A stretch of 36,548 bases of DNA, taken from positions 1 to 36,548 of the IMG/VR virus record IMGVR_UViG_3300042988_001111; one strand, written 5' to 3'. A program made the position numbers and the translations under genes. This DNA is from a virus. Below, one piece after another: positions 499-36,548 of the stretch. Position 1 is the stretch's first letter. Every line of letters begins with the position of its first letter. Under the pieces are notes generated by a model. That model was not told where the DNA came from, did not search any database, and saw nothing but the letters and a program-made list of their open reading frames with translations.

Positions 499-1044
499 CT
501 AGTTCAGCCCTTCCACTGTGAAGTAAGCCAATGATATCGAGTTGGATGCTGAAGCTTGTCCCCATTCTACAGTGACAGAGATGGCATTACTAGCAGTTGT
601 ATCTATGGTTGTTGTTGCAGTGTTCACTAATTGGTAAGCGTCGTGCGCGCTAGGTGTACCAGTAAATTCCTTGTACTCACCTTGAGCCATAACAGTGCCG
701 CTGGCTCCTGTAGTTCTACAAGTTATATTGGCCGAGATAATAAATCCATCATTTGTTGATGCACCACTAGATTGCGCGCCCGTATCTAATAAAGTAACAG
801 AGCCGAGCTTTACTCTTATTCGTAAAGTATTTCCGTTAGCGTTTGAGTGAAACCCATTACCAAATAATCTAAAAGATCTACCAGCAATTAAATAGTTAGC
901 AGGTAAAGTTAATGAGCCCACACCGCCGCCTGTTATTGCTGTTTCAGTTACAGTATTTGCCACTGTTACAGTTGAGGTCTGAGTAAACAGAACAGTTCCG
1001 GTTGCCTGTTTTCTTTTTCCGATAAAGTTAATTAAGTAACTCAC
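499..1044 (-). CDS. Virion-associated beta-rich protein, function unknown
   Basis: About 181 residues, Thr/Ser/Ala/Gly-rich and strongly beta-predicted, with no cysteine motif or recognised enzyme domain. This composition is typical of receptor-binding or fibre-tip proteins. It sits immediately downstream of the Cys-rich fibre. I choose the GTG at 1044, which overlaps the fibre stop as GTGA. An upstream TTG at 1056 would add four residues and overlap more. It may be a fibre partner, chaperone or carbohydrate-binding tip; the sequence alone does not decide. Confidence 0.55.
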   Translation of the reverse strand: MSYLINFIGKRKQATGTVLFTQTSTVTVANTVTETAITGGGVGSLTLPANYLIAGRSFRLFGNGFHSNANGNTLRIRVKLGSVTLLDTGAQSSGASTNDGFIISANITCRTTGASGTVMAQGEYKEFTGTPSAHDAYQLVNTATTTIDTTASNAISVTVEWGQASASNSISLAYFTVEGLN

Positions 1045-3200
1045 ACTATCACCCAATTGGAATTGTTGGACACAACCGTCATAGATTCACTGGTATTAAG
1101 AGTGAGCGCCCCACTCGCGTTGCCATCAATTGTCTGTGAGCTTGTGGTATTCAAAGTAATTACTCCGCTTCCAGTATTTTTTAATATGTATTGTTTGCCG
1201 TTATTTAGGGACGCGCTCGGAAGTGTCAGCGTAAAAGTTCCGCTTGTGCAATCAACTATGTCATCAATATCTGTGAGTGTGTAGTTAGCAGTCTTAGCTT
1301 GATAGTTTAGTCCTCGCTCTAAACTATGAGCAAACCATCTATCAGATGTTGTGTAATTTCCAGAACAAAACGCTGTAGCGTTTCCGGCCCCAGAACAAGT
1401 GCTGTCCTCACTATTCCAAGAACAATAACTAGCCACTGGAGAAGTCTCACATCCACTTTGATCTCCATTGTAAGATGAACATGTAATAACAGGTATCCAA
1501 GAACAGCCGCTCTGTGCGCTACACGGTGTGGACGATGAAAATACAGAGCAAGGATAAGAGATGTTTTGATTATGTAATAAAACCTTATCGCCCTTTTTAA
1601 AGAGCGTCATATTACCATATTGGAAAATATTCTCACCAGTCTGACCTTGAATAGAGCATGTTCCAGTAGATCCAACGTGAACGATTGAATAAATTCTACC
1701 TGTAGTGGTTCTTAAAGCGTTTGAAGTTAATGGTAACGTTACAGTGATACCGACTGTCCACGTACAGCCCGACTCTGCATTACACGCAGTTTGTCCGTCA
1801 TCACTTAGGTTTGAACAAGCTGCCGTACCTTGGCATGTTGCCCCGAAAGTGCCTGTGCAATCTCCGGTGTTGTAATCGCCGTTACAAAGATTTCCTGAGC
1901 AATCTATGAAATAGCTTCCTGAGCATACAGAAGATTCATCATAGACACCGTTACAAACATTGCTACCGCCGTCCCAAGTACAGCCAGTATGCGAGGTCTC
2001 GCAGGTTGATTGATCCGTTCCATCAAAAGCGTGGCAATCCGCTCCTGTCCAAGCACATCCTGTATTTCCTTCACAAGTGCCTTGAGAGCCACCATTAAAC
2101 GTTGAGCAATCATTAGTATTAGCTGTGCAGCCAGCCTCGGCCTGACATGTCGCGGTTGAAGTGTATGATGGGCAAGTCGATGTATCCCAAGAGCAAGATC
2201 CGCCATAGGAATCATCTTGCGCTTCGCATGTAGATTGATCTGTGTTATCGGCACCAGAGCAGCTAGCAGATCCCCACGTACATCCGGCACCCTGAGATTC
2301 ACAGGTCGATTGATCCGTGCCTGTAGCCCCGCTACAAGATGTACCAGCAAACCAAGAGCATCCGACAGCCGATTTCGCGTTACATGTTCCCTCTGAGCTT
2401 AGCGAACTACATACTGTAGTCGGAGTGCCTGTACAGAAATTGGCGTTACTCGGATCACAATATACAAAAGTTTCAGTGTCGGCCAACGTATATGAAGATG
2501 AATTAACTAAAACACCTTTAACGGCAAAAGAGCCATAAGCACTCAATGTTGTTTGAACAGATAGATCTGTGCTTCCGGCTGTAACTTTTTGACCGAAATA
2601 ACCAGAGTAGGATGAATAAACCCCACCGCTATAAAGCTGCATCACCATCGTTTGAGATGTTATGCTTGAGCCAATGTAGAAACTATGTGTTGGGCTACCA
2701 CCAGCGGTTTTCCATTCAGTAGATCCGCTTGAATTTGATGACCACGCACTTCTAATTGTCGTCCCATAAGTGTGGCCTATATGGTTTGTGCTGCCACTAG
2801 AGTTAATATCTAAAGTTAGAAGAGTATCTACGGTAGACGCATTATCACTGGCTACTTTTGCATAACCCGTCATCGTAAATAATGACTTAGATCCTGCGCC
2901 AGCACCTTTCGCGTCCCAAGTTAGCGCGTCTGCATAAGCAGAATTATTTAAAGAGTATTGAACTTTCCAGCGCCCATATCCGGGGTTGGCGGACACGCCT
3001 TGTGTAAACGCTTTGTACGCCACAGGAATAGAAACAGATGTTCCAGAACTCCACGCACTACCTTCCCAAATTTGCGAAGCTGAAGTTTGAACAGTGGCAG
3101 CAGAGATTGCCTTTCTTTGAGTAGTATAAGTCTGGTCGGCCAACCACGAATTAGCTACTGTGAGCAGATTCTTAACGGCAGGCCTTATCTGTCCAAACAT
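1041..3200 (-). CDS. Tail fibre or spike with a Cys-rich repeat domain
   Basis: About 719 residues. The first ~250 are a beta-rich, Ser/Thr/Tyr-rich fibre-like region. A Cys-rich array follows, built on units like GC(S/T)W-x(3-5)-C-x(4-9)-DQSTCE, with nearly 30 cysteines in ~220 residues. After a short spacer there is a second, smaller Cys-rich stretch. The C-terminus is a beta-helix-like segment (YTLTDIDDIVDC... then LTLNTSESMTVVSNNSNWVIV-type repeats). I choose the ATG at 3200, which follows GGAG at good spacing and comes just after the preceding stop. The GTG at 3218 would overlap that gene. The protein probably sits at the virion surface and binds the host; disulfide-stabilised repeats are unusual for a phage fibre. 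A cytoplasmically assembled disulfide protein would need oxidation, which may relate to the nearby thioredoxin-like gene. Confidence 0.7.
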   Translation of the reverse strand: MFGQIRPAVKNLLTVANSWLADQTYTTQRKAISAATVQTSASQIWEGSAWSSGTSVSIPVAYKAFTQGVSANPGYGRWKVQYSLNNSAYADALTWDAKGAGAGSKSLFTMTGYAKVASDNASTVDTLLTLDINSSGSTNHIGHTYGTTIRSAWSSNSSGSTEWKTAGGSPTHSFYIGSSITSQTMVMQLYSGGVYSSYSGYFGQKVTAGSTDLSVQTTLSAYGSFAVKGVLVNSSSYTLADTETFVYCDPSNANFCTGTPTTVCSSLSSEGTCNAKSAVGCSWFAGTSCSGATGTDQSTCESQGAGCTWGSASCSGADNTDQSTCEAQDDSYGGSCSWDTSTCPSYTSTATCQAEAGCTANTNDCSTFNGGSQGTCEGNTGCAWTGADCHAFDGTDQSTCETSHTGCTWDGGSNVCNGVYDESSVCSGSYFIDCSGNLCNGDYNTGDCTGTFGATCQGTAACSNLSDDGQTACNAESGCTWTVGITVTLPLTSNALRTTTGRIYSIVHVGSTGTCSIQGQTGENIFQYGNMTLFKKGDKVLLHNQNISYPCSVFSSSTPCSAQSGCSWIPVITCSSYNGDQSGCETSPVASYCSWNSEDSTCSGAGNATAFCSGNYTTSDRWFAHSLERGLNYQAKTANYTLTDIDDIVDCTSGTFTLTLPSASLNNGKQYILKNTGSGVITLNTTSSQTIDGNASGALTLNTSESMTVVSNNSNWVIV
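1340..2450 (-). repeat. Degenerate DNA repeats encoding Cys-rich units
   Basis: Inside the fibre gene, degenerate units of roughly 60-75 bases recur. The plus-strand word gattgatc(c/t)gt appears three times (near 2007, 2232 and 2308), encoding the T-D-Q-S-T-C core. The similarity at DNA level suggests recent unit duplication or recombination, so repeat number may vary between relatives. Confidence 0.65.
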
Positions 3201-3202
3201 TC

Positions 3203-3622
3203 TTAGAAGTCTCCACACTGAGCGATCACATTAATCGCCTTTGCTGTCGTAACAGTTGAGAGAGCTTTTACTTTTAAAACCGCACCCGCTGAAAGGTAGA
3301 GCGCTTTATTACCATTCACATCCACGAGCATGTTTGCAAATTGAGTTGACGCAAATACAGCGAGCATTGGAACAGCATTCGTGAAACCAGCGTTAAGCGC
3401 ACATTGCACAGTGCTTAGTAGATAATCTGTCCCACTGATTGTGATATAAAATTGAAGATCTTTATTTGCAGTATCAGTTGATCCGCAAAAAATTCCCATT
3501 ACTAATCCGCCATTAGCTCCGGCAGTGTAGATAGTTTTTAAACTTGTAGTATCGGCTGGAAGTATTTGAACAACAGGCGATAAAATTGTTTGTGGAAAAA
3601 TTGGCGTTGCTGTGACGGCCAT
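3203..3622 (-). CDS. Probable virion structural protein
   Basis: This 139-residue beta-rich protein has little charge (for example VVQILPADTTSLKTIYTAGANGG) and no enzymatic motif. Small proteins of this composition are common in phage head or fibre clusters, where they act as decoration or adaptor proteins. Its last codons (GGAGAC...) carry the Shine-Dalgarno site of the fibre gene that follows. The upstream gene ends one base before, so the set 4107-to-499 reads as one translational unit. Exact role unknown. Confidence 0.55.
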   Translation of the reverse strand: MAVTATPIFPQTILSPVVQILPADTTSLKTIYTAGANGGLVMGIFCGSTDTANKDLQFYITISGTDYLLSTVQCALNAGFTNAVPMLAVFASTQFANMLVDVNGNKALYLSAGAVLKVKALSTVTTAKAINVIAQCGDF

Positions 3623-10721: not shown

Positions 10722-11849
10722 TTAAATTACCCACTCAATTTCTTCGCCGTTACGAATGACTTTGTTAGTTTTAGTATATTTGCAGAATCTGCTTACTATG
10801 ACATCGCAGTAGTGTGGATCGAGCTCCATCATGAAGCATTTACGGTTGGTCTTCTCGCAGGCGATGAGCGTTGAGCCTGAGCCACCGAATAAATCAATGA
10901 CTTGTCCAGCCTCCCAACGCTCAAAACACCATTGAATTAGTTCAACTGGCTTTTGAGTTGGATGCACTCTGTTTGATTTTTCCGATGCTTTTGTAAATTG
11001 CCTTGTCACTCCTTTAAAGTTTGTCCAAGCAAGTTCGCAATCCATTTGATCTGACTGACCATTGTTTTTATCCCAAACAAGCCAGCATGTTGCGTCGGGA
11101 AGCGCGGAACTATAGTAATTGGCACCCCAAAAAACTAATTTTTCAATTCCCAATCCAGCGCATAATCGATATGCGTCCTTTGCGACGTTTACATTGTCGT
11201 CATTCATTATGTCTGAATGGTAGTTTTTTGAAAGCACACCGCTTTTTGATACCGCACTCATCCCATAAGGCGGATCGGTAAAAACCATATCAGCCTTGTT
11301 CCCGTCCATAAGCTTCTCAACGGCATCAATGGCGGTCGAGTCACCACACATAAGGCGGTGATTGCCTAAAATGTAGATATCACCCAGCACTGACTTAGCT
11401 TCTTTGGGTGTTGGGACTTCATCCTCATCGCAACCCGGGTCTTTGTCGGCTACGTCTATGGTGAAGTCTTTGATTCCTAGTAAGTCGATGTCGAAGTCAG
11501 GGCCTAGGTCACCTAGGTCTGAATTGATGCCTGATAAGTCCAACTCACTCCAAGAAGCTATTGCATTGTCAGATTGAACAAATGCGTACTCCTGTTCTTC
11601 ACTATTAAATTCTTGATAAACAACAGGAGCTTTTAGCCAAGAGTTTTTTTTAATTGCCTCTAAAGTACCGTGACCTTTTACAATACAGTTTGAAAGTTTA
11701 GAAACAACGATTGGTGCTCTTATTCCTTGAAAAATTAAAATTTGAGCTAATCGTTCAATTTGTTCTTTAGAATGTTTATTTCTATTTTTAGGATAAGGCT
11801 TAAGATCATCTACATTAATAAGCTGATCGTATTTACATTGAATTATCAT
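10722..11849 (-). CDS. ParB-like domain fused to DNA (N6-A/N4-C) methyltransferase
   Basis: 375 residues in two parts. Residues ~10-105 are a ParB/sulfiredoxin-like domain (LKPYPKNRNKHSKEQIERLA, then IVKGHGTLEAIKK). Residues ~155-375 are a beta-type amino-methyltransferase: DPPY (192-195, motif IV), HPTQKP (296-301), and FGGSGST (321-327, motif I), then CFMMELDPHYC. Order IV before I is normal for this group. Fusions of this type are common beside phage terminases. Roles proposed for them include protection from host restriction and marking DNA for packaging. There is no cognate restriction gene nearby, so it is an orphan methylase. The ATG follows AGGGGAAG. Confidence 0.9.
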   Translation of the reverse strand: MIIQCKYDQLINVDDLKPYPKNRNKHSKEQIERLAQILIFQGIRAPIVVSKLSNCIVKGHGTLEAIKKNSWLKAPVVYQEFNSEEQEYAFVQSDNAIASWSELDLSGINSDLGDLGPDFDIDLLGIKDFTIDVADKDPGCDEDEVPTPKEAKSVLGDIYILGNHRLMCGDSTAIDAVEKLMDGNKADMVFTDPPYGMSAVSKSGVLSKNYHSDIMNDDNVNVAKDAYRLCAGLGIEKLVFWGANYYSSALPDATCWLVWDKNNGQSDQMDCELAWTNFKGVTRQFTKASEKSNRVHPTQKPVELIQWCFERWEAGQVIDLFGGSGSTLIACEKTNRKCFMMELDPHYCDVIVSRFCKYTKTNKVIRNGEEIEWVI

Positions 11850-12418: not shown

Positions 12419-12502
12419 CTAATACCCAATTTTTAAAAGGTGTGGGCAATTCCTTTAAAACTAAGTACTGCATAAATTGGGTCAGATCGTTTTACTTAGT
12501 TT
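12412..12502 (-). ncRNA. Kissing-loop RNA element (two hairpins with paired loops)
   Basis: Hairpin A pairs 12412-12420 with 12438-12446 (9 bp). Hairpin C pairs 12458-12467 with 12493-12502 (10 bp). The loop of A contains ACCCAATTT (12424-12432) and the loop of C contains AAATTGGGT (12474-12482), which are exact complements, giving 9 bp between loops. Read on the minus strand it lies about 240 bases downstream of the late promoter, between the Pmp3 gene (overlapping its stop) and the nuclease-like gene. It could act in antitermination, termination, mRNA stability or translation. Strand inferred from the promoter. Confidence 0.6.
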
Positions 12503-12698
12503 AGCGAGGTGATCTCATGAGTTCTCTCATACGTTCAAAGTCACGTTCTTTTTGTTCTGAATGAACAATACAAAAGGCATGAATTACAGCAGGAAACCAG
12601 AGTAAAAAACATAGTGCGATATTGAAAATTGCGTGAAAAATTTTACCTTCAATAATTAGAGCTAATGGTGGGCAAAATATAGCTAAAAAGTATTTCAT
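12501..12698 (-). CDS. Pmp3/YqaE-family small membrane protein
   Basis: 65 residues. The first ~45 match the Pmp3/UPF0057 pattern: FLAIFCPPLALIIEG, a short loop, then NIALCFLLWFPAVIHAF, two membrane helices with the Pro-Pro near the start and W-x-P-x-x-I-H-A in the second. A charged 20-residue tail follows. The family is found in bacteria and eukaryotes and is linked to membrane potential and stress. It is the first gene of the minus-strand block, with a GAGG site before the ATG. Its role in a phage is not known to me; superinfection control or membrane energetics are possible. Confidence 0.8.
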   Translation of the reverse strand: MKYFLAIFCPPLALIIEGKIFHAIFNIALCFLLWFPAVIHAFCIVHSEQKERDFERMRELMRSPR

Positions 12699-12745
12699 TA
12701 TAACCTCGCTTTTTGTTACCCAAACGACTGGGCTTTATATCTATT

Positions 12746-12774
12746 ATTATACGCTGTGTCATATAATAAGTAAA
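12746..12774 (-). promoter_or_regulatory. Sigma-70-like promoter for the minus-strand block
   Basis: On the minus strand, -35 TTTACT (12769-12774) and -10 TATAAT (12746-12751) are 17 bases apart. A start site near 12739 would give a ~40-base leader to the Pmp3 gene. The -10 is a perfect consensus. This is the best promoter I can see upstream of the long late-type block. Confidence 0.65.
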
Positions 12775-12832
12775 CAAGATTGATGCGTGTAAGTGTATGA
12801 ATTTACATGTGTTAAATATTATTTTTAGGTTA

Positions 12833-12857
12833 AGCTTTTAAAAGCTCAAACTATTAT
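12833..12857 (+). promoter_or_regulatory. Palindrome and -10 element of the rightward transcript
   Basis: A perfect 14-base palindrome (12833-12846, centred on TTTTAAAA) is followed by TATTAT (12852-12857), a fair -10 for the plus strand. No good -35 is present. The palindrome may be an operator in place of the -35, so a transcript starting near 12864 would need an activator. The next bases fold as a hairpin (12870-12875 with 12883-12888). Confidence 0.4.
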
Positions 12858-12863
12858 ATATAA

Positions 12864-13510
12864 ATGAATTGGGCAGGTAGATTGCCCATTCTAGACTCCT
12901 CAAGGGTTAGCGCCCTTAGTAGTCATGAACAACGGGTGTAATTGAATCACCGTCGTTATCTAAAAAATAACTACAAATTCATTACACGTAAAGAGAAAAA
13001 GGAACTGAAATCCCCTTTTTTGGTCCACCGCCTTGATTTCCTGATGCAGGATTCAATGAGACGGAGTTGATTGGAATTGTGAGGGGGCACTTAGTCTAGA
13101 GGTTCGGCTCTAGCGGCTCAAGTGAGCTGGCAGACGAGGACATTTTGCGAAGGCTCGGTTTAAATTAATTGGATTTAAACATAAGGGCTAGCTTAACGGA
13201 AACGGTTAAGCCTTATTCGTCTTAGGTCTCTATGGGCACTAGGGTTCGGACGCAGAACTAAAGTTTTGGGTGAAAGTCCCAACTGGTTATAAAGTAACTT
13301 AGCCAGAGCTTCGAGAGTCCCTCGAAGTATACGAGTAAAGCCTCATGAGTACGAGGTAGCGTTGGGTATATGGAATTGGCGAAGCATTAAGTAGCGCCCC
13401 CATATTCTCTTATGGTGCTAGAGAACTCTAATGCAGTTCTTTGTCTAAGCACTATAAGGGATTGTTACGCCCGCAAATTGGATGCGGGCGCTATATTTAG
13501 GATTCTAGGA
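12864..13510 (+). ncRNA. Large structured non-coding RNA, candidate ornate phage RNA
   Basis: No credible reading frame covers this ~620-base stretch. It holds at least a dozen perfect local hairpins: 12870-12888, 12902-12917, 12931-12957, 13039-13051, 13096-13113, 13116-13127, 13158-13180, 13191-13211 (GAAA loop), 13266-13282, 13283-13306, 13309-13327, 13400-13415, 13422-13440 and 13468-13490. A long-range stem, 12891-12900 with 13499-13508 (9 of 10 pairs), could close the domain. The GAAA loop of the 13191 hairpin fits plus-strand transcription. It lies between divergent promoters, ahead of the early genes. Size, phage location and density of structure recall the GOLLD and ROOL classes; I cannot confirm membership. 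The 3' closing arm ends at the ribosome site of the 13522 gene. Confidence 0.7.
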
Positions 13511-13521
13511 GAGAATCGATT

Positions 13522-13791
13522 GTGGCTAAAATGAATTGGAACAAAGTGAAACCGCGACATGCTAGTTTTGAAAGTAAAAGGCAATTAGATTTAAAATTAA
13601 AAAGAAAATCTGAAATATCTGCTACAGAAAAGCAGTTATCTTTTATGAGAATTCTAAAAATAGAATTTCCAGATAAAATAACTAAAGTTGATGCTTCATT
13701 TTTAATTTCTAAAACTTTGAAAGAAAACGATAAAGCTAAGAGATTAAATGAAACTATGGATAATGAAGTAAAAAATATTTGTAGATATTAA
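13522..13791 (+). CDS. Small basic protein, first early gene
   Basis: 89 residues, GTG start with AGGAGAG at good spacing. Lys-rich and helical; residues ~35-65 (ATEKQLSFMRILKIEFP, then DASFLISKTLKEN) resemble the short helical motif that follows nuclease or exonuclease domains in some phage proteins and carries the pattern A-T-x-K-Q-x-x-x-x-x-x-L. No catalytic motif is visible. It directly follows the structured RNA, and its ribosome site overlaps the proposed closing stem, so RNA folding could affect translation. Function unknown. Confidence 0.6.
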   Translation: MAKMNWNKVKPRHASFESKRQLDLKLKRKSEISATEKQLSFMRILKIEFPDKITKVDASFLISKTLKENDKAKRLNETMDNEVKNICRY

Positions 13792-13829
13792 ATAGTTTAC
13801 TTTATAAAACCTAGAGTCTATAAGTTCTT

Positions 13830-13948
13830 TATGTTTTGGGAAATTAAAATTATAATTTAGATTTTACCTCGGTAGCTCGGAGCTATCTTAAACCCAAAAC
13901 ATATCTTAGTTTTGAGTTACTGAGGTAAAGCTTTGTGAAGGAGTCACT
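13830..13948 (+). promoter_or_regulatory. Leader RNA with two mutually exclusive folds
   Basis: Fold 1 is a compact three-way junction: 13862-13870 with 13922-13930, hairpin 13871-13887, and hairpin 13891-13893/13895-13900 with 13909-13914/13916-13918. Fold 2 is an 11-bp stem, 13830-13840 with 13893-13903, which uses the strand needed by the last hairpin. Downstream, GTGA (13935-13938) and TCAC (13944-13947) can pair so that the ribosome site AGGAG sits in the loop, five bases from the ATG. A switch between folds fits a cis-regulator such as a riboswitch or protein-sensing leader. Confidence 0.55.
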
Positions 13949-14158
13949 ATGAGTAAAAATATAATTCCATTTAAAAAGAAAGAAACTAAGAAAAATAAAG
14001 ATGTTAAAAATTCTCTACAAAAAGCTATGGTATTTTCTAGGGAAATAGTTGAGTTTTCAATAAAAAATAAAGTTGATGGTTCAACGCTTGCCTTATCTGT
14101 AGCTTTATTAGACCAAACCTTTAATAAAATATTTGGTGATTTAGATGTTACAAAGTGA
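13949..14158 (+). CDS. Small protein ahead of ERF, unknown
   Basis: 69 residues: a Lys-rich start (PFKKKETKKNKDVKN) and a helical second half (QKAMVFSREIVEFSIKN, ALLDQTFNKIFGDLD). ATG with GAAGGAG five bases upstream. It sits behind an elaborate leader, suggesting its level, or that of the coupled ERF gene, is controlled. The stop lies 14 bases inside the ERF gene. No family recognised. Confidence 0.6.
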   Translation: MSKNIIPFKKKETKKNKDVKNSLQKAMVFSREIVEFSIKNKVDGSTLALSVALLDQTFNKIFGDLDVTK

Positions 14159-14867
14159 AGATATAAAAGAACTAGCCTCAGCCTTAAGTAAAGCTCAAGC
14201 TGAAATTGAAGGCGCTGTTAAGGATTCTAAAAACCCATTCTTTAAATCAAACTATGCAGATTTAAGTTCAGTTATTAGTGCCATAAAAGAACCGTTAGCT
14301 AAATATGGTCTAAGCGTATCTCAAATGACTGACTTTAATGACGATGGGATTGAATTTGTTGAAACACAGATCATGCATAGTTCAGGTCAATGGCTTCGTG
14401 GTCGACTCCCAATTAAAGCTAAAGACAATAGCCCTCAAGCTCAAGGCTCGGGTATATCCTACGTAAGACGATATGCTCTTCAAGCCGCACTTTGTGTTTC
14501 TAGTCTTGATGACGATGGTCAAAGTGCTCAACATAACCAAACTCCTAAATACATTGTTCCAGAGTCAAAACCCATACAATACGCACCAGTTAAAGAACCA
14601 CAAAAAGCTATAGTTTCAGATAAACCAAAAGATATCGTTAAACCTAGCCCATCTTTGAGCGTTCTAGAGTATCCTACAACTGCTCAGAAGGGGAAAGTCC
14701 AACACCTAATCGTTAAATTAGGTAAAGACAAAGATCCTACCTATCTACGCTCTAAATCAATCGAGCTCTTTAACTGTGAACCTACTAAAATGAGCTCCAA
14801 ACAAGCTGACGACCTTATTAAAAATCTAGAACAAACTTTTAGAGACTTAGCCAAAACCAATGCTTAA
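14145..14867 (+). CDS. erf: ERF-family single-strand annealing protein
   Basis: 240 residues. The ERF core is residues 5-130: ALSKAQAEIEGAVKDSKNPFF, KSNYADLSSVISAIKEPLAKYGLS, then G-S-G-I-S-Y-V-R-R-Y-A-L-Q-A, followed by DDDGQSA. These are the hallmark segments of the family. A Pro/Lys-rich linker and a C-terminal helical domain (TAQKGKVQHLIVKLGKD...) follow. ERF proteins bind single strands and promote annealing for phage recombination or genome circularisation. No paired exonuclease is evident, but the nuclease-like protein at 15595 and RusA are in the same operon. Confidence 0.92.
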   Translation: MLQSEDIKELASALSKAQAEIEGAVKDSKNPFFKSNYADLSSVISAIKEPLAKYGLSVSQMTDFNDDGIEFVETQIMHSSGQWLRGRLPIKAKDNSPQAQGSGISYVRRYALQAALCVSSLDDDGQSAQHNQTPKYIVPESKPIQYAPVKEPQKAIVSDKPKDIVKPSPSLSVLEYPTTAQKGKVQHLIVKLGKDKDPTYLRSKSIELFNCEPTKMSSKQADDLIKNLEQTFRDLAKTNA

Positions 14868-36189: not shown

Positions 36190-36444
36190 TTACCACTTTC
36201 CTTTCGGGCAGCTCTCAGCATGAAGCCCAGTTTTATAAGTCAGATAACAGCCACATTCTACGCAGCGATTATCTCTATAAAATTCACAGCCAACACAGGC
36301 GGCCATTCTTTTTTGAATGACTTCTTTTGTGGCCATAACTTTTCCAGTTTTAAAAGCCTCACCAACGACGTTCACAAAAGAGAATGCAACATTTTTCACT
36401 TGCTTTGTGGCGGAGGGAAAAGCGCAATTCTCACACTTATCCAT
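36190..36444 (-). CDS. Zn-ribbon-like Cys-rich protein
   Basis: 84 residues. Cys pairs C4-x2-C7 near the start, C50-x2-C53 in C-V-G-C-E-F-Y, then C-V-E-C-G-C-Y-L-T-Y-K and a final C-P-K-G-K-W. The last four fit a Zn ribbon that is common in phage genomes (C-x2-C-G-C, C-P-x-x-K-W end). Probably a DNA- or protein-binding zinc module. Its 5' end lies within the terminal repeat and overlaps the thioredoxin-like gene stop across the circle. Confidence 0.75.
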   Translation of the reverse strand: MDKCENCAFPSATKQVKNVAFSFVNVVGEAFKTGKVMATKEVIQKRMAACVGCEFYRDNRCVECGCYLTYKTGLHAESCPKGKW

Positions 36445-36548
36445 TTGCGATAGCCTTTCTTAAAGCAATCTCATCTTGGATTTCTTTAAGCAGTCTTTTT
36501 AGAGGTACAATTTGATCTATTAAGTTTGCCTCGTCAGTTAAAAGTGTA
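36423..36548. repeat. Terminal direct repeat, right copy (126 bp)
   Basis: Second copy of 23-148. It also contains the C-terminal end of the thioredoxin-like gene again (36437-36548, minus strand, running off the end). That fragment is the same gene as 37-489 seen twice, not a paralogue. Confidence 0.9.

Follow-up and report, generated by a model that had tools for sequence, protein, structure and literature searches.

The divergent junction of the phage genome IMGVR_UViG_3300042988_001111 raises the question of what kind of element separates its two gene blocks and, if that element is an RNA, whether it belongs to a described family. The window, that is, the whole stretch of 36,548 nt that was analyzed, represents a complete circular phage genome of ∼36.4 kb, since bases 36425–36548 repeat bases 24–147 (a 124-bp terminal direct repeat); bases 1–23 are the reverse complement of nearby bases, a snap-back assembly artefact. 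The leftward (packaging) block carries a ParB-like/methyltransferase fusion, TerL and the head genes, and the rightward (early) block carries Erf and RusA. The fusion gene, in which a ParB-like domain is joined to a DNA methyltransferase (10722–11849, minus strand), lies beside the terminase genes, and its homologues occupy the equivalent position in L107 and L126. Directly left of the junction, a phage-borne Pmp3-family proteolipid gene was found at 12501–12698 (minus strand). The protein encoded at 1041–3218 (minus strand), 725 aa long, contains numerous cysteine-rich repeats of the CxxxxGTDQSTCESQGAGCTW type; it had no match in PHROG and is likely a tail-fibre or adhesin-like protein. As judged by protein comparison, the phage is isolated: when close kin were sought through TerL, Erf and the presumed portal, no TerL identity exceeded 32% (the best in IMG/VR; about 29% among GenBank phages), no Erf identity exceeded 58%, and the presumed portal gave no match in the GenBank search.

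The gap at 12699–13521 is the sole ORF-free gap longer than 350 nt genome-wide, and no ORF of at least 50 aa was found in it on either strand, which bears out the view in the preliminary description that no reading frame fits here. Within 12864–13515, stop-free runs reach at most 49 codons in any frame; all of 104 other same-size stretches of the genome hold a run of at least 63 codons, and a run as short as 49 codons occurred in 9 of 500 shuffles. The base composition also sets the region apart: G+C amounts to 44% in 12864–13515, 27% in the spacer to the left and 25% in the gene to the right. That A+T-rich spacer (12699–12863) separates the leftward (packaging) block from the rightward (early) one and contains a promoter-like site on the minus strand (12774–12746). 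A rightward promoter is presumed near 12840–12860, and no convincing plus-strand promoter for 12864–13515 was found.

The region was also described as highly structured, and this was upheld by two measures. The minimum free energy of 12864–13515 is −222.8 kcal/mol, versus −184.6 ± 7.2 kcal/mol expected (z −5.3), a value to be read with the unreliability of energy models at an RNA length of 650 nt. Perfect Watson–Crick hairpins, which can be counted independently of energy models, gave nine hairpins of at least 6 bp versus 1.3 ± 1.1 in shuffles, and five of at least 7 bp versus 0.3 expected; neither count was reached in any of 200 shuffles. Other 657-nt stretches of the genome hold 1.4 hairpins of at least 6 bp on average and six at most, and among 4,923 same-length stretches from other phage DNA a single one, which is A+T-rich coding DNA, reached nine. 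The hairpin excess is real and unusual, well above chance. Hairpin-dense stretches of L096 and L098 were rejected, being A+T-rich coding DNA. The minus strand folds with a larger z (−8.2) than the plus strand (−5.3), so the strand is not settled by folding; the rightward reading is based on the gene orientation and on a strand-specific group II-like match discussed below.

Several elements can be placed on the plus strand of 12864–13515, which is annotated as a structured, hairpin-dense non-coding RNA region. A first hairpin of 7 bp (12870–12888) marks the presumed 5′ end of the RNA. The central domain (13186–13342) consists of a GAAA-loop hairpin at 13191–13211, followed by a multi-branched domain at 13214–13337 that is closed by the pairing of UAUUCGU with ACGAGUA. 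The GAAA-capped hairpin had been singled out before, and it is real, with 7 bp and the loop GGAAACG. Downstream, a long hairpin at 13406–13461 has an outer helix of 14 bp that includes G-U pairs on the plus strand (z −5.7), and an 8-bp G+C-rich hairpin at 13468–13490 is followed by CTATATTTAG; the latter is a weak terminator-like site with a poor T tract, at the putative 3′ end of the RNA. The first gene after the RNA (13522–13791, plus strand) encodes a protein of 89 aa with no homologue in the collections searched. The region heads the rightward Erf/RusA block, in keeping with its earlier placement in front of the early genes. A second strongly structured intergenic element was observed at 13827–13932, before the gene at 13949 (z −5.8); it contains a long hairpin (UUUUACCUCGGUAGCU../..UACUGAGGUAAAG) and a crossing 10-bp complement (ATGTTTTGGG/CCCAAAACAT), a possible pseudoknot or switch. 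A weak match to the c-di-GMP-I-UAU riboswitch at 13987–14062 (plus strand; 21 bits, E 0.14) lies in a reading frame and is probably due to chance.

The two ends of the region can pair in different ways. The preliminary description proposed that a long-range stem between 12891–12900 and 13499–13508 closes the domain; nine of its ten pairs indeed exist (11 of 12 in an extended form), and its duplex energy was matched by 15 of 1000 shuffles. When the fold was computed by partition function with the ribosome site included, however, this stem was a minor conformer in silico (∼10%), because 13501–13517 forms a hairpin of its own (∼87%). In this alternative local hairpin, GATTCT-AGGAG-AGAATC, the loop holds the Shine–Dalgarno sequence of gene 13522. 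The 5′ arm of the possible long-range stem spans 12889–12900, and its partner, 13499–13510, includes and covers the AGGA of the ribosome site, so that the 3′ arm does meet the ribosome site of gene 13522 as had been noted. The long-range stem and the hairpin at 13501–13517 are mutually exclusive, and as modeled these two pairings suggest control of gene 13522.

Membership in a known RNA family was examined with covariance models. No Rfam family matched the window at gathering thresholds, and GOLLD, ROOL, OLE, HEARO and intact introns were absent up to E 10 with lax filters (12750–13560 and 12700–14200); an assignment to any of these is therefore not supported. Large ornate phage RNAs of which few are known, ROOL and GOLLD form RNA cages of unknown purpose and often lie near tRNA islands (PMC12286853). 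The region shares with them a large size (about 500–900 nt), an ornate and non-coding character, a phage or prophage origin and a poorly known function. Unlike them, it has no covariance-model match, heads an early operon, has no tRNA island (tRNA and tmRNA genes number zero across the 36.5-kb genome) and has no relatives that were found. The suggestion that it is a member of the GOLLD/ROOL class was accordingly not sustained. OLE RNA is similarly about 600 nt long and highly structured, but the region does not match the OLE model, and the known OLE RNAs come from Bacillota extremophiles and not from phages (PMC12054373).

A resemblance to group II introns was seen in the central domain. Among weak Rfam matches the single informative one was the model of group II intron domains 1–4 (RF02003; clan CL00102), which aligned to 13264–13389 with 16.2 bits against a cut-off of 49; the E value is 0.004 for RF02003 alone in this genome and 0.37 over all 4227 Rfam families, which is within chance. 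Profiles were built from group II introns that had been collected across 199 genomes from the phylum to which G001, a Bacillus, belongs. With the profile of intron 5′ ends, the best match in the whole window was 13267–13342 (E 0.007). The covariance model R1 scored 20.2 bits (E 6.8e-5 for the window) over two abutting hairpins at 13266–13306, UUGGG-UGAAAGU-CCCAA and CUGGUUA..UAGCCAG, and matched, through the loop UGAAAGU and the next hairpin, on the plus strand only. Across 1.47 Mb of other phage DNA, R1 scored 8.8 bits at best, although ten loci there carry an identical first hairpin and lack the second, which indicates that part of the signal comes from the second hairpin. R1 includes the intron L177, which was retrieved by a window-derived pattern; the model R2, which excludes L177, scored 19.1 bits (E 0.00045), and in its alignment the first hairpin of the intron was unmatched, with five of six pairs broken. 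A plain Smith–Waterman comparison with a group II intron (p about 0.0003–0.002) was set aside as evidence, since the intron had been picked for containing the pattern and an equally high score was reached elsewhere in the genome.

Like the B and C hairpins of group II domain I, those at 13266–13306 abut each other, with UGAAAGU as the first loop and CUGG..CCAG in the second hairpin, and are followed by AGC. Because thousands of families had effectively been examined first, this resemblance is suggestive and not established. In other respects the region is unlike a group II intron. No GUGYG 5′ end was present at the expected 30–35 nt upstream of 13266, RF00029 (domains V/VI) had no match anywhere in the genome up to E 10, and an ad hoc scan whose positive controls were uninformative detected no domain-V-shaped hairpin near the region. 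Lacking a GUGYG start and a domain V, it is not a splicing group II intron; there is likewise no intron-encoded protein and no interrupted gene, and the match is embedded in the middle of the RNA.

Relatives of the RNA were searched for in several ways. A blastn search of phages and plasmids returned none, and exact DNA patterns taken from the RNA detected no relative either. The pattern TTGGGTGAAAGTCCCAA had ten IMG/VR matches, about the number expected by chance and seven of them inside reading frames, and was discarded as a source of relatives. Multi-segment scans, in which part of the RNA was translated so as to try several degenerate patterns at once, yielded no relative. Together, the probes of these searches covered GenBank phages, plasmids, IMG/VR contigs and GTDB species genomes. 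When 149 Bacillota genomes and phage loci totalling 1.47 Mb were scanned with a 157-nt covariance model of the central domain, nothing else was detected. A new class would need relatives, and none was found in the collections searched. In L098, L101 and L104, where TerL and Erf-like genes occupy opposite arms of a similar divergent layout, the junction gaps measure about 110–155 nt; given these short gaps, the RNA looks like an accessory element. In L091 (IMGVR_UViG_3300017988_000959), two Y-RNA-like/tRNA-like modules (YrlA, below the cut-off with E 7e-7 and 1e-6) come ahead of a structured, largely ORF-poor region of ∼600 nt (10990–11750, minus strand; z −4.9); this region was rejected as a relative, having a single hairpin in common with the window RNA. 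L082 contains a Type II hammerhead ribozyme (14441–14508, minus strand) and, elsewhere (around 1408), a tRNA-Leu-like sequence that was not called by ARAGORN.

Taken together, the non-coding character, the hairpin excess, the lack of a known family and the group II-like piece point to a probably new large phage RNA. We give a probability of about one half to the reading that the region encodes a large (∼650 nt) structured RNA heading the rightward early (Erf/RusA) operon, accessory and outside the described families. Such an RNA would be transcribed rightward from the A+T-rich spacer, as a plus-strand RNA, and would fold around the central multi-branched domain as a structural scaffold. It may then act as a discrete RNA that terminates or is processed close to the hairpin at 13468–13490, or it may serve as a leader for the early transcript; in that case its 3′ end would present the ribosome site of gene 13522 (hairpin 13501–13517) or hide it (stem to 12889–12900).

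Whether a separate RNA is needed at all depends on how this 3′ end is viewed. A purely cis-acting 5′ leader, through which gene 13522 and the early operon would be controlled at the level of translation or transcription, would agree with the position of the region abutting the ribosome site, with AGGAG either exposed in the 13501–13517 loop or paired with 12889–12892, with the poor T tract of the terminator-like hairpin, and with the second strong structure in the next intergenic space. Structured leaders that gate a ribosome site likewise have a 3′ end overlapping the Shine–Dalgarno sequence of the next gene and two exclusive pairings. The region, however, is several-fold longer than known bacterial leaders of this type: its 650 nt far exceed what a switch requires, no ligand family was recognized, the long-range stem is sparsely populated in silico, and gene 13522 has neither a known function nor a homologue; we regard a leader of this kind as possible, though on the unlikely side. 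The hairpins might instead act in DNA, as a replication origin or as a packaging or control region, which would suit their place between divergent blocks; Watson–Crick hairpins are by construction equal on both strands, and the z of the minus strand is even larger. Against this, the 14-bp helix at 13406–13461 is uninterrupted only with plus-strand G-U pairs, the UGAAAGU loop and the following hairpin match the RNA model on the plus strand only, the hairpins are diverse and not iterated, and the cumulative G-C skew has no extreme at 12864–13515, so a function in DNA appears improbable.

The group II resemblance allows two further readings. A decayed ORF-less group II intron, in which part of domain I was kept and the catalytic 3′ end was lost, would account for the RF02003 match and for the profile and covariance scores obtained here, and ORF-less introns have a similar size of about 600 nt (PMC12350094). 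But besides the missing 5′ end, the unpaired first hairpin, the absent domains V/VI and the chance-level E value over all of Rfam, the match sits about 400 nt into the RNA, and decay should cost structure, yet this is the most hairpin-dense stretch of the genome; such a relic seems just as improbable as an element acting in DNA. The region could also belong to a new class of large phage RNAs in which part of group II domain I provides the scaffold for folding but catalysis plays no part; the intron fold would then have been domesticated, no longer splicing, for a structural or regulatory role. We consider this doubtful. A very divergent GOLLD, ROOL or OLE RNA would agree with the similar size, ornateness and phage setting (PMC12286853) and with structure beyond chance, but the models stayed silent even at E = 10 with lax filters, and the lack of any tRNA gene contrasts with the tRNA-island setting common for GOLLD and ROOL (PMC12286853); this is highly improbable.

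If the region is a large RNA outside the described families, it would be another, unrelated large RNA heading an early operon and would offer a second genomic setting in which to study the role of such RNAs. If, in addition, the domain-I-like module is truly homologous to that of group II introns, it may represent an intron fold that has been turned to a non-splicing use.
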